Shown piece by piece: positions 10,505 to 23,707 of a DNA stretch of 45,119 bases. The stretch spans positions 1-45,119 of the forward strand of contig JAUNUJ010000001.1 of the NCBI GenBank assembly GCA_030538235.1, in the 5' to 3' direction. A program made the position numbers and the translations under genes. The DNA is from Alcaligenaceae bacterium (GTDB lineage: Bacteria > Pseudomonadota > Gammaproteobacteria > Burkholderiales > Burkholderiaceae_B). The notes below the pieces were generated by a model, which was not told the origin of the DNA, did no database searches, and saw only the letters and a list, made by a program, of their open reading frames with translations. Within the stretch, counting starts at the first letter, position 1, and every line of letters starts with the position of its first letter.

Positions 10505-10783
10505 ATGAATAAGACAGAGTTAATCGAAGCAATCGCTAATGAAGCTGAAATCTCCAAAGCTGCTGCCGGCCGCGCCTTAGATGCAATGATCAACCAAGTT
10601 AAAGTTACTCTACAAGCTGGAGAAGCTGTGACCTTGATTGGTTTTGGTACATTTGATACGTCTGTTCGTGCTGCCCGCACTGGCCGTAATCCACAGACAG
10701 GTGCCGAGATTCAAATCGCCGAGGCGGTTGTTCCTAAGTTCCGTCCGGGTAAAGCACTTAAGGATGCTGTCAACGCTAAGTAA
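10505..10783 (+). CDS. hupB: DNA-binding protein HU
   Basis: 92 residues, the standard length of HU, starting at ATG 10505 with AAGGGG upstream. It begins [11 protein letters not shown] and carries the beta-arm signature GFGTF...[12 protein letters not shown], which inserts into the DNA minor groove. HU is an abundant nucleoid protein that bends DNA and assists replication initiation, recombination and transcription. IHF is less likely because the sequence lacks IHF-type N-terminal residues. It is a single-gene transcription unit with a good -35 box and a perfect terminator. Confidence 0.94.
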
Positions 10784-11042: not shown

Positions 11043-11118
11043 TGGTGGGTGCTACAGGGGTCGAACCTGTGACCTACGCCTTGTAAGGGCGCCGCTCTAC
11101 CAACTGAGCTAAGCACCC
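11043..11118 (-). tRNA. tRNA-Val (anticodon TAC)
   Basis: The minus strand folds as a complete 76-base tRNA with encoded CCA. The acceptor stem is GGGTGCT/AGCACCC (7 bp). The D arm is GCTCAGTTGGTAGAGC, the anticodon arm is GCGCC-CTTACAA-GGCGT with anticodon TAC, and the T arm contains GGTTCGAACC. TAC decodes GTA and related valine codons. It is a single tRNA gene with its own promoter and terminator. Confidence 0.97.
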
Positions 11119-20505: not shown

Positions 20506-21594
20506 TCAATTATTTATTAGATGTTCAATCTTGTCGAAGAAATCCGGATCAGAAAATTCAGCGCGAACTTTTAAAAACCAGAAACGCTCATCGGCCCAGT
20601 GGCGACATTTGAGCGCATCTTTTTCTGTCATCAAGATAATTTCCTCATCAATACCCTCAAAATCCTCACGACTGAAACTATGATGATCAGGAAAAGCTTG
20701 TTGCTTTTGTGGTGTGATATGTAGTGCAGCCAAGCTATTAAAAAAGCGTTGAGGATTACCGATGCCCGCCACGGCAGCAATCGAGTGGTTTTGGTAGTGC
20801 GATAACCAGGTATCAAGAGCTAGTTCACTGTTGTTTTTGAGATTGACAAAAGCGGTGGGGAGCAGACGCATATCGACCAACAAGGGTGTCTGTGTTTGGG
20901 TGGCGTTGTGTGCTTGCTCCGGCATATTATGATGATTACGGTTGGTGATAATGACATCAACCTCGCTCAGTTTCGTAGCCGATTCTCTTAAGGGACCGGC
21001 AGGTAAGAGACGGCCATTGCCAATGCCTCGCTCATCCTGAACAATAATTTCCACATCCCTTTGCAGAGCAAGATGCTGTAGACCATCGTCAGCGACGATC
21101 ACGTCGGTGTGTGGGTAGTGCGCTAACAAAGCTTTAATCGCCAGCTCACGCTTAGGGTGTACCGCAATCGCCGCATATTGGGCCAGGAGCGCCGGCTCAT
21201 CACCTATTAGTTCGGCCTTAACATTGACACCTTTAGCAATTCGAGCTGCGGGGCCAATCTTCACACCGTAACCTCTGGAGATAATGCCCGGCTGCCAACC
21301 TTTGTCTTGCAGTGCCTGAACGATGGCTGCGACTACCGGAGTCTTACCGGTCCCGCCAACGTAGATATTACCTACCACGATCACCGGATAGGGGGCCCGA
21401 TAACTGCGTTTGATTTGTTTTTGATAAAGTTTTTTTCTGAGACTTTGAATGGCGCCATTGAGTTTGGCTAAAGGGATGAAAGCGCGACTTAACGCACCGC
21501 CACTTTGCCATTGTTTCTGCAATTGATGACTGAAACTCGGTTTTTGGGTAGCTAGTGGGTCTTTGGGGTGGCTTTTCATAGGGGTATCAATCAT
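20506..21594 (-). CDS. lpxK: Tetraacyldisaccharide 4'-kinase (lipid A 4'-kinase)
   Basis: 362 residues from ATG 21594; ATG at 21579 would start MKSHPKDPL. The P-loop GNIYVGGTGKTPVV, GIISRGYG and ADDGLQH are diagnostic of LpxK. The enzyme phosphorylates the 4' position of the lipid A precursor at the inner membrane, and a hydrophobic, basic N-terminal region supports membrane association. It heads the lpxK-trm112-kdsB unit. In related genomes exbB-exbD often precede it; here a DnaA-box-bearing AT-rich gap does. Confidence 0.94.
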   Translation of the reverse strand: MIDTPMKSHPKDPLATQKPSFSHQLQKQWQSGGALSRAFIPLAKLNGAIQSLRKKLYQKQIKRSYRAPYPVIVVGNIYVGGTGKTPVVAAIVQALQDKGWQPGIISRGYGVKIGPAARIAKGVNVKAELIGDEPALLAQYAAIAVHPKRELAIKALLAHYPHTDVIVADDGLQHLALQRDVEIIVQDERGIGNGRLLPAGPLRESATKLSEVDVIITNRNHHNMPEQAHNATQTQTPLLVDMRLLPTAFVNLKNNSELALDTWLSHYQNHSIAAVAGIGNPQRFFNSLAALHITPQKQQAFPDHHSFSREDFEGIDEEIILMTEKDALKCRHWADERFWFLKVRAEFSDPDFFDKIEHLINN

Positions 21595-21607
21595 TCATAG
21601 GAGTTAC

Positions 21608-21638
21608 CCACAAATAATGTGGATAACTTTGTGTATAA
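21608..21638 (-). repeat. 31-bp DnaA-box element, copy 1
   Basis: A palindromic CCACA...TGTGG core is followed by a second box three bases on. It matches the copy at 22041-22071 in 28 of 31 positions. Its two minus-strand boxes read TTATCCACA and TTATACACA. Confidence 0.85.
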
Positions 21639-22040
21639 ATCACGGTATGTCTGTCATTATACGTATCTCAGCGAGTATTGCTCAATTGCTATGCAATTTA
21701 ATTGAAATATTAAAATCATAATAAAATCAATATATTAAGAGTTTTTATTGATGTTTATCTTGAGAAAACCTTGATAAAAATGAGTTTTTAGGCGTGGGAA
21801 CAGTTGTTTTTTTAATTGTGGAAAACTAGTAATAGATTTTTTATCTTCGGGGCTGCTCGTTTCAAAAACTTTGTTTGTAGCGAGCAAAAGCGATTTGCTC
21901 AGGAAAAACTTATTGCGATATAAATTAAAATAGATTCTTGTAAGATGTAGTAGCTGAAACTGATGTTCTTTTTCAATAATCACTACTAAGTACTTACATT
22001 TATTGCCTATTTGCTGCTTTTTTTGTAAAAAAATAATAAT

Positions 22041-22071
22041 CCACAAATTTTGTGGATAACTTTGTGAATAA
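22041..22071 (-). repeat. 31-bp DnaA-box element, copy 2
   Basis: Direct repeat of 21608-21638, 433 bp downstream, with three substitutions. Its minus-strand boxes read TTATCCACA and TTATTCACA. The substitution between the two copies falls at the degenerate fifth base of the second box, so both copies stay within the DnaA consensus. Confidence 0.85.
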
Positions 22072-22309
22072 GTAGCTTGGTCTCCGTATTTCTACGTATC
22101 AAGAGGGTTGTTGCTTAAAAAGCGTGCAATCTTAATGAAATATTATATATTCTTATAAATCAGTAACTTGAGTGATTATATTAAAGTGTTTGTTAAGATA
22201 TCAGTGCTAAAAACTAAATTTCCACAGTAAGTAGCTGTTAATTTCTGAGTTGTGGAAAAGTAGTAGGCTATTTTTATTTTTTGAGTGGATCTTTACCAAA
22301 ATATTTGTT

Positions 22310-23707
22310 ATGCACCTAGAAAAAGTACTTTCTGTTACAGAATTAAGTCATCTCATTAGCCAAACTCTTGACTATCAGATACCACTCTTTAAGGTCGAAG
22401 GAGAGATTTCTCAAATCACCAAAGCCACATCCGGTCACTATTATTTTTCAATTAAAGATGAAAATAGTGCCCTTAGCGCGGTTATGTTCAGAGGGAAGGC
22501 GTCGAGTTTGGATTTTCAACCCAAGCAAGGGGATATGGTTGAGCTTAAAGGCAAGTTGTCTTTATTTGCTGCCCGTGGTTCTTTGCAAATTCAGGTTGAA
22601 GCGATGCGCCGTGCCGGGGTGGGAACGCTTTTTGAACAGTATCTTCAAATTCTTGAAAAGCTTAAAAAAGAGGGCTTATTTGAGCCAGAGCGTAAATTGG
22701 CGATTCCTCCTTATCCACGGCGTGTCGGTATTGTCAGTTCTTTGCAGGCTGCCGCTTTGCAGGATGTGCTAACGGCTTTAAGGCGTCGAGCGCCACAGTT
22801 TAAGGTGATTATTTATCCTAGTCTGGTTCAGGGTGCTGAGGCTGTTGATGAGCTTATCAGAGCTTTAGCTCAGGCGGAGTTACGGCAAGAGGTTGATGTT
22901 ATCTTATTAGTACGTGGTGGTGGAAGTTTAGAAGATCTTTGGTGTTTTAATGATGAGCGTCTGGCACGCATGATCGCCGCCAGTTCAATTCCGATTGTTA
23001 GCGGGGTTGGGCATGAAACGGATATCACCATTGCGGATCATGTGGCGGATTTGCGCGCCGCCACGCCGACAGCGGCAGCTGAACTGATTAGCAAGACTGC
23101 TTATGCGTTGCCGGCTATCCTAGAAGAGTTTACTCAGCGTATTAATCGAGTGATGCTACAGGTATTGACTGAGCGACAGCGACGCTTTGTTGAGTTACAG
23201 CCGCGCCTTAATCGTCTGATCGAGCGAAGCTTGCTTGATAAGAGTATGCGCTACGATGAGTTAAAGTTCAGATTGGTTGCGCCTCGGCGTATCTTTGAGC
23301 AATACGACGATAGGCGTTTACAGCTTCAGCAGTTGTTAGAGCATCATTGGCAATCGCAATTGACAAGTAAATTCAGCCATTTGGAGGGGTTATGTTTGCG
23401 TTTGGCATCGAGAAAGCCTAACATAGGGGCAGAGTACGAGCGCTTAACGCAGTGGCAGGAGCGACTCAATCGAGCCATCAATCAGCAATTCAAAGCACAT
23501 CAACAAAAATTTGAGCAATATTCTCAGCTGTTGCATAATATAAATCCGAAGCAAGTTTTGCAGCGCGGATTTTCTATTGTTTATGATGCCGAGGGCCAAG
23601 TCGTCCACCAAGCTGATCGATTGCGCGTTGGACAAGAGCTTCAGCTGGAATTTGCGAGCGGACGTGCTGTAGTACATGTAAAATCATTAAATTTTAAGGA
23701 GCAATGA
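22310..23707 (+). CDS. xseA: Exodeoxyribonuclease VII large subunit
   Basis: 465 residues from ATG 22310. The frame is open back to a TTG at 22250, but the family begins at about VLSVTELSHLI. An OB-fold (about 8-105: VEGEISQITKATSGHYYFSIKD, AVMFRG) is followed by the catalytic domain with YPRRVGIVSS, VRGGGSLEDLW and SGVGHETDITIADHVAD, then a coiled-coil region. Together with XseB it degrades single-stranded DNA to oligonucleotides in repair. sodB follows three bases after the stop, with its AAGGAG inside the end of xseA. Confidence 0.95.
   Translation: MHLEKVLSVTELSHLISQTLDYQIPLFKVEGEISQITKATSGHYYFSIKDENSALSAVMFRGKASSLDFQPKQGDMVELKGKLSLFAARGSLQIQVEAMRRAGVGTLFEQYLQILEKLKKEGLFEPERKLAIPPYPRRVGIVSSLQAAALQDVLTALRRRAPQFKVIIYPSLVQGAEAVDELIRALAQAELRQEVDVILLVRGGGSLEDLWCFNDERLARMIAASSIPIVSGVGHETDITIADHVADLRAATPTAAAELISKTAYALPAILEEFTQRINRVMLQVLTERQRRFVELQPRLNRLIERSLLDKSMRYDELKFRLVAPRRIFEQYDDRRLQLQQLLEHHWQSQLTSKFSHLEGLCLRLASRKPNIGAEYERLTQWQERLNRAINQQFKAHQQKFEQYSQLLHNINPKQVLQRGFSIVYDAEGQVVHQADRLRVGQELQLEFASGRAVVHVKSLNFKEQ

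Follow-up and report, generated by a model that had tools for sequence, protein, structure and literature searches.

The control of replication timing is far less known in Betaproteobacteria than in E. coli, in which DARS sites convert ADP-DnaA back to ATP-DnaA. According to the parts of PMC5742627 consulted, DARS1 and DARS2 share equally spaced DnaA boxes with box I opposed to boxes II and III, and the text consulted of PMC10380432 describes the head-to-head box pair as characteristic of DARS and functionally essential. By the same sections of PMC5742627, datA is a cluster of strong boxes with IHF in non-coding DNA, and its essential boxes share one direction. On distribution, the consulted section of PMC4245941 restricts conservation of the DARS2 core to gammaproteobacteria related to E. 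coli, that of PMC5742627 describes a conserved DARS2 spacing for E. coli-proximal beta- or gammaproteobacteria, and that of PMC10380432 ascribes DARS-like sequences to many proteobacteria. Since reviews report DARS-like sequences in other proteobacteria, this kind of site is already known; the site upstream of xseA described below is not named in the parts of these three papers that we consulted.

The window, i.e., the whole stretch of DNA analyzed, is the initial 45 kb of contig C9 in a draft genome of 2.43 Mb and 14 contigs from an Alcaligenaceae bacterium. Between the divergent genes lpxK and xseA it contains a gap of 715 bp with 71% A+T, compared with 54% across the window, in agreement with the original prediction of an AT-rich, gene-free spacer between outward-facing genes. 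The xseA reading frame was called from a TTG at 22250; remoter XseA homologs mostly align from about residue 21-26, and the ATG at 22310 is the more likely start. The encoded XseA is 80% identical to that of two Alcaligenaceae bacterium MAGs. An Rfam search of the window found only a tRNA at 11046-11118 and no RNA element in the gap, and blastn of the gap against 50,697 phage records gave no match.

The sequence TTATNCACA occurs five times in the window (100 shuffles: mean 1.84, sd 1.36, with five shuffles reaching five), and four of these lie within 454 bp in the gap as the two predicted pairs, every one on the minus strand (boxes II and III in Table 1). The 31-bp repeat around the pairs was confirmed as well (21608 vs. 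22041, 433 bp apart, 28/31 identical), as were two TTTTCCACA boxes and two near-matches, TTACCCACA and TAATCCACA, the latter both on the plus strand. The first reading had rightly remarked that all strong boxes point the same way, but the remark hid a weaker, opposed box I; both opposite-strand near-matches in fact belong to the repeated element. Also unnoted were a second IHF consensus and the full extent of the repeat, as the two modules, A and B, can be aligned across some 268 bp with 68% identity (180 identities, 85 mismatches, 7 gaps). On the minus strand, core A is TTATACACA-AAG-TTATCCACA-TTATT-TGTGGGTAA and core B is TTATTCACA-AAG-TTATCCACA-AAATT-TGTGGATTA. The accessory TTTTCCACA box of module B is retained in several genus members.

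Table 1. Features in and around the lpxK-xseA gap (positions in the window; offsets of protein sites counted from the core).
Feature	Position	Strand	Remark
HU-type DNA-binding protein gene	10505-10783	+	best match HU-beta, below model cut-off
lpxK (tetraacyldisaccharide 4'-kinase)	20506..21594	-	divergent neighbor; ATG at 21594
DARS-type core A, 35 bp	21604..21638	-	9 bp from lpxK ATG
Core A, box I, TTACCCACA	21604-21612	+	opposed; 5 bp from box II
Core A, box II, TTATCCACA	21618-21626	-	3 bp from box III
Core A, box III, TTATACACA	21630-21638	-
Fis consensus (GNNYANNNNNTRNNC), exact	21680..21694		module A, between IHF site and core, at -56; suggestive
IHF consensus AATCAATATATTA, module A	21725..21737	+	-99 from first base of core A box III
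Accessory TTTTCCACA box, module A	21817..21825	-	213 bp from core A left end
DARS-type core B, 35 bp	22037..22071	-	triple box, spacings 3 bp and 5 bp
Core B, box I, TAATCCACA	22037-22045	+	opposed; 5 bp from box II
Core B, box II, TTATCCACA	22051-22059	-	3 bp from box III
Core B, box III, TTATTCACA	22063-22071	-
IHF consensus (WATCARNNNNTTR), AATCAGTAACTTG, module B	22158..22170	+	-99 from core B
Accessory TTTTCCACA box, module B	22251..22259	-	214 bp from core B left end, 50 bp upstream of xseA ATG
xseA (exodeoxyribonuclease VII large subunit)	22310..23707	+	divergent neighbor; ATG at 22310

The joint occurrence of DnaA boxes, an IHF site and AT-rich DNA would also suit a replication origin, and a relocated oriC was the first proposal for the gap. 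However, the GC skew keeps its sign here: it is positive on both sides of the gap, in all 30 1.5-kb windows of the 45-kb stretch and in each of 19 additional stretches sampled over the 401 kb of contig C9, with slightly negative values in three of 13 1-kb sub-windows at about 204-212 kb. On C10, the other of the two contigs sampled out of 14, the skew is negative in 19 of 20 stretches (the remaining one +0.005), and 2-kb windows over its last 20 kb are negative until 357.8 kb and positive beyond. This flip at about 356-358 kb adjoins mnmG and parA/parB-like genes, with dnaA and dnaN some 10 kb off. The stretch C10:355800-358400 (L029) combines the skew switch with TTATCCACA boxes beside these genes, and a skew minimum with a stronger box cluster next to dnaA was among the findings expected to count against an origin in the gap. 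The real origin is probably located there. The gap was rejected as oriC because no skew switch occurs at the site; in addition, cores upstream of xseA persist in complete genomes with a distant dnaA, and a relocated or secondary origin at the gap is therefore extremely improbable.

In both modules, three boxes form a core in which box I is opposed to boxes II and III, with spacings of 3 bp and 5 bp as in DARS1 and DARS2. The corresponding E. coli cores are TAATACACA-TGG-TTATCCACA-GGAAT-AGTGGATAA for DARS1 and TTCTTCACA-ACT-CTATCCACA-GAAAA-GGTGAATAA for DARS2, and no box in any of the four cores departs from TTWTNCACA by more than one mismatch. We consider the gap likely to be a DARS2-like site in tandem duplicate. 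One point against this reading is box I, which is the weakest box in cores A and B and is poor in two related loci (L185 and L186).

The repeat element of the original prediction is conserved in related genomes. All eight genomes of the genus match TTATNCACAAAGTTATCCACA with at most two mismatches, while a reversed-pattern control gave none in any of them. Two matches 433-454 bp apart are present in seven of the eight, and in six of these seven the pair marks the lpxK-xseA gap; in the remaining genome (G004), the pair lies near a contig end, apart from an xseA fragment. Across genus and family loci, a core is found upstream of xseA in 32 of 33, and the one locus that lacks it is an xseA fragment with no DNA upstream. 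In a set of 80 named loci, which overlaps the genus set (L087 and L088 are contigs G002:C118 and G003:C60), 16 have the core upstream of xseA, and the other 64 are labeled mostly as gammaproteobacteria and other groups, with one Betaproteobacteria (L132) and one Proteobacteria (L127). These 80 loci contain 40 copies of TTATNCACA in the 56 kb just upstream of xseA, compared with 20 in the other 649 kb, and all 40 are on the strand opposite to xseA. No triple core was found at gammaproteobacterial xseA loci, 12 of which have an occasional single TTATTCACA or TTATCCACA upstream.

At the level of the order, one genome per family gave 48 regions, of which 47 were long enough for the test. On the strand opposite to xseA, 37 of these 47 family representatives have a core with a score of 22/27 or more, and three matches on the other strand are merely these cores read in mirror image. 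The remaining 10 of 47 have no core upstream of xseA at the 22/27 threshold, which counts against the DARS reading.

It is the arrangement of the boxes, rather than their number, that exceeds chance. One-mismatch DnaA boxes are not enriched in the window (95 found vs. 97 expected), a frequency that would suit chance or neutral repeats in an AT-rich spacer. By contrast, when both window strands are scanned for triple boxes spaced by 3 and 5 bp, cores A and B score 26/27 and the best other place scores 21, mirror readings of the two cores set aside. At a threshold of 22, there were no matches in 302 kb of other stretches of the genome (L029 and L030 left out) and none in the dnaA-oriC stretch L029, and L030 matches solely at a second array described below. 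When regions from the 47 families and the window were anchored on an exact TTATCCACA, which 38 of the 48 contained, box similarity peaked at exactly -12 in direct orientation (mean 7.03/9; background 3.23, sd 0.81) and at +14 in inverted orientation (mean 7.08; background 3.36, sd 0.73). A grid of spacings, in which minus-strand loci were still unturned, peaked at (3,5) in 31 of 46 loci; the same grid gave (5,5) in 21 of 46, presumably from the ACACA self-similarity of the box. With strand and spacing conserved in 37 of 47 family representatives, the IHF offset conserved in many, and the 302-kb background empty, an origin of the cores by chance or neutral repetition is hardly credible.

We also built a core model, R1, from 48 of 73 core sequences, hand-picked to drop near-duplicates and containing no E. 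coli sequence. In the genome of the window it recovers core A (E = 5.8e-10) and core B (E = 4.8e-10), both of which are part of R1, and at E ≤ 0.01 it matches at least 147 of 150 genomes of the order, some of which supplied R1 sequences. Among the R1 matches listed, 29 loci were new (L220-L248), 16 of them just upstream of xseA and 13 elsewhere. Applied to 203 kb of E. coli picked to include DARS1, DARS2, datA, oriC, dnaA and xseA, R1 ranks the DARS1 core first (E 2.8e-4, positions 7-40) and the DARS2 core fourth (E 2.4e-3, positions 2-38), with shorter matches to datA (positions 3-25, E 5.7e-4) and oriC (positions 10-27) in between. These partial matches outrank DARS2, which weakens the DARS reading; however, only DARS1 and DARS2 are matched over more than 30 positions, and a mismatch-count scan of 200 kb of E. 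coli found three places, all within the gaps that hold DARS1 or DARS2. R1 has no match in the E. coli xseA-guaB stretch (L252).

The original prediction had offered a datA- or DARS-like site as a fallback, and the DARS half of it fits in box number, order, orientation and both spacings, while the datA half fails on box direction. A datA-like sink would titrate DnaA or promote ATP hydrolysis after initiation, and a cluster of strong boxes with IHF in non-coding DNA describes datA too, as outlined in the consulted part of PMC5742627; the R1 match to datA, above DARS2 but confined to model positions 3-25, points the same way. Against it stands the common direction of the essential datA boxes given in that part of PMC5742627. 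Identity with datA was rejected on this ground, box I being opposed in both modules, and position by itself is indecisive. In 34 complete genomes, the distance between xseA and dnaA (taken between these genes rather than from core to origin, with several genome lengths rounded to 0.1 Mb) ranges from 0.03 to 0.97 of the replichore. Its median is 0.77 in 16 family genomes, one of them at 0.03, and 0.58 in the other 18; xseA is thus mostly far from dnaA in the family, compared with 0.20 for E. coli datA, and we regard a datA-like sink as very unlikely. Since the distance varies, no fixed dosage position is supported; this also speaks against a DARS site, as chromosomal position matters for the DARS of E. 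coli.

The second element shared with DARS2 is the IHF site, fixed on the box III side. The predicted IHF consensus in module A is an exact match, and both modules have the site at -99, compared with -87, 12 bp nearer, in E. coli DARS2, where it lies on the same side in the same orientation and is followed by a second IHF site 3 bp further. The two DARS2 sites found fit IBS1 and IBS2 as described in the sections of PMC4245941 consulted. Among 52 modules upstream of xseA (related rows, with L087, L088 and further Pseudoduganella copies dropped), 50 show the IHF consensus between -101 and -94 with no more than one mismatch, 33 of them exact, against 19 matches across 492 other offsets. In the 48-region set (one genome per family plus the window), 21 matches fall at -99 to -96 among 38 anchors, compared with 18 over 342 other offsets; most of the 37 family representatives with the core have the IHF site as well. 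In relatives the site mostly lies 8-13 bp more distant from the core than its DARS2 counterpart, roughly a helical turn, and the helical phase of IHF would be kept despite the shift. In DARS2, according to the same sections of PMC4245941, activity was moderate when the IHF sites were shifted 10 bp outward from the core, and partial when they were shifted 5 bp outward or 5 or 10 bp inward.

For Fis, the consensus given in the consulted text of PMC8682772 has no exact match in module B. Upstream of xseA in relatives, an exact Fis consensus is located at -66 in 10 of 67 regions, and with up to one mismatch it is found at -56 in 20 of 67, but also at +2, inside the core, in 18 of 67 (related rows in both counts). 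There is a hint that Fis matches between the IHF site and the core are over-represented in relatives. Fis sites are essential in DARS2, and their conservation is not clear here, another point against a DARS function.

Further cores exist in this genome and in relatives. A second array (C9:210477-211404; L030:6478-7405), 189 kb away on the same contig, has four cores spaced by about 295 bp. They occupy a 1.3-kb gap flanked by two convergent genes, malate synthase G and a gene of 159 aa that follows a TRAP permease, and each of the four has an IHF-like site (one mismatch) at exactly -29. In Pseudoduganella (L091-L094 and L096), xseA is preceded by a tandem series of five to seven triple-box cores; several have a forward IHF consensus at -29 or -30, which matches the placement in the second array. 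Among the 13 R1 loci away from xseA, 11 have IHF (at most one mismatch) at -95 to -99, the exceptions being L221 and L232. The neighboring genes were examined at 11 of these 13: three loci lie upstream of priA, each in a different family (L224, G260; L234, G149; L245, G261), one lies beside recC (L241) and one beside a TatD-type gene (L223), and the rest adjoin proS, hrpA, an ABC-F gene, a gene for a polysaccharide deacetylase, or genes of no named family.

These neighbors bear on the main rival to a DARS site, a divergent promoter under DnaA and IHF in which xseA/lpxK transcription is tuned to the cell cycle without nucleotide exchange. Core A lies immediately next to the lpxK start, and in 22 of 26 loci (L174-L199, about 1.5 kb of flank) the element stays with xseA without lpxK. 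Cores beside priA, recC and a TatD-type gene would fit as well, and E. coli has a compact DnaA regulon including replication and repair genes, as given in the consulted part of PMC11317965. The xseA, priA, recC and tatD neighbors, like uvrB and mutH in E. coli, also fit DnaA-controlled promoters, and cores beside proS, hrpA, ABC-F and polysaccharide deacetylase genes are a further difficulty for the DARS reading. However, a promoter would give no reason for an opposed box I at 5 bp together with a DARS2-like IHF placement, and the four-copy array of the same core lies between convergent genes. Overall, we regard transcriptional control as an unlikely sole explanation, although both functions may coexist.

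Of the proteins on which a DARS2-like site would draw, the genome encodes DnaA with a conserved box-binding end, IHF alpha and IHF beta (both above cut-off), an Hda-like protein (Hda is the best match, 6.5 bits under the curated cut-off), and an 83-aa Fis-like protein with a Fis-type HTH, the gene of which adjoins what we take to be a dus-like gene. By analogy with E. coli, and with sequence architecture and conservation as the observed part, ADP-DnaA would bind head to tail on boxes II and III and in the opposite direction on box I, and head-to-head contact of DnaA on boxes I and II would loosen ADP. IHF, perhaps with Fis, might bend the flanking DNA and so activate the complex; apo-DnaA would then depart, take up ATP and be able to start replication. 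The two adjacent modules, along with the four cores of the second array, would raise the reactivation capacity of the genome.

For Betaproteobacteria as a whole, we see even chances for an order-wide DARS system that predates the split from the gammaproteobacteria. Its ancestral main site would be the one upstream of xseA, with additional sites such as those upstream of priA in three families, and the arrays into which some lineages have amplified it (two and four cores in this genome, five to seven in Pseudoduganella) would set the rate of ATP-DnaA recharge. Probably, this means of timing replication reaches further back, and is more widely distributed, than the relatives of E. coli. In a literature search of titles and abstract starts, which excluded most subscription journals and the 2009 DARS paper from its scope, no paper on the xseA site was found, and none on its spread through the order, on the displaced IHF site or on the tandem arrays. 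If these are DARS sites, the DnaA recharge cycle becomes testable in Betaproteobacteria at a predictable address upstream of xseA, and the placement beside repair and restart genes (xseA, priA and recC here, uvrB and mutH in E. coli) becomes a question of its own.

Compared with known systems, the locus resembles datA as a non-coding cluster of DnaA boxes plus an IHF site, but its opposed box I differs from the single direction of the essential datA boxes (in the part of PMC5742627 consulted), and datA is origin-proximal. It is also similar to the DnaA double-box promoters, such as E. coli nrdA (TTATCCACA-aag-TTATGCACT; Table 1 of PMC11317965), in its direct pair with a 3-bp spacer, even aag, whereas a fixed opposed box I and a fixed IHF site fall outside the double-box description in the consulted text of that paper. 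With DARS1, in the bioD-uvrB gap, it shares the core geometry, and DARS1 is the best E. coli match of R1; unlike the present modules, DARS1 has no IHF consensus within 250 bp in our scan. The closest likeness is to DARS2, in the rppH-mutH gap: box order, orientation and the 3-bp/5-bp spacings are identical, the IHF consensus is on the box III side in the same orientation, and both sites lie in non-coding DNA beside a DNA repair gene. The differences from DARS2 are the IHF offset (-99 here and mostly -95 to -100 in relatives, vs. -87), the Fis candidate (between the IHF site and the core here, with the exact consensus beyond the IHF site, at -125, in E. coli), and the location at xseA, with two tandem modules in the genus of the window.
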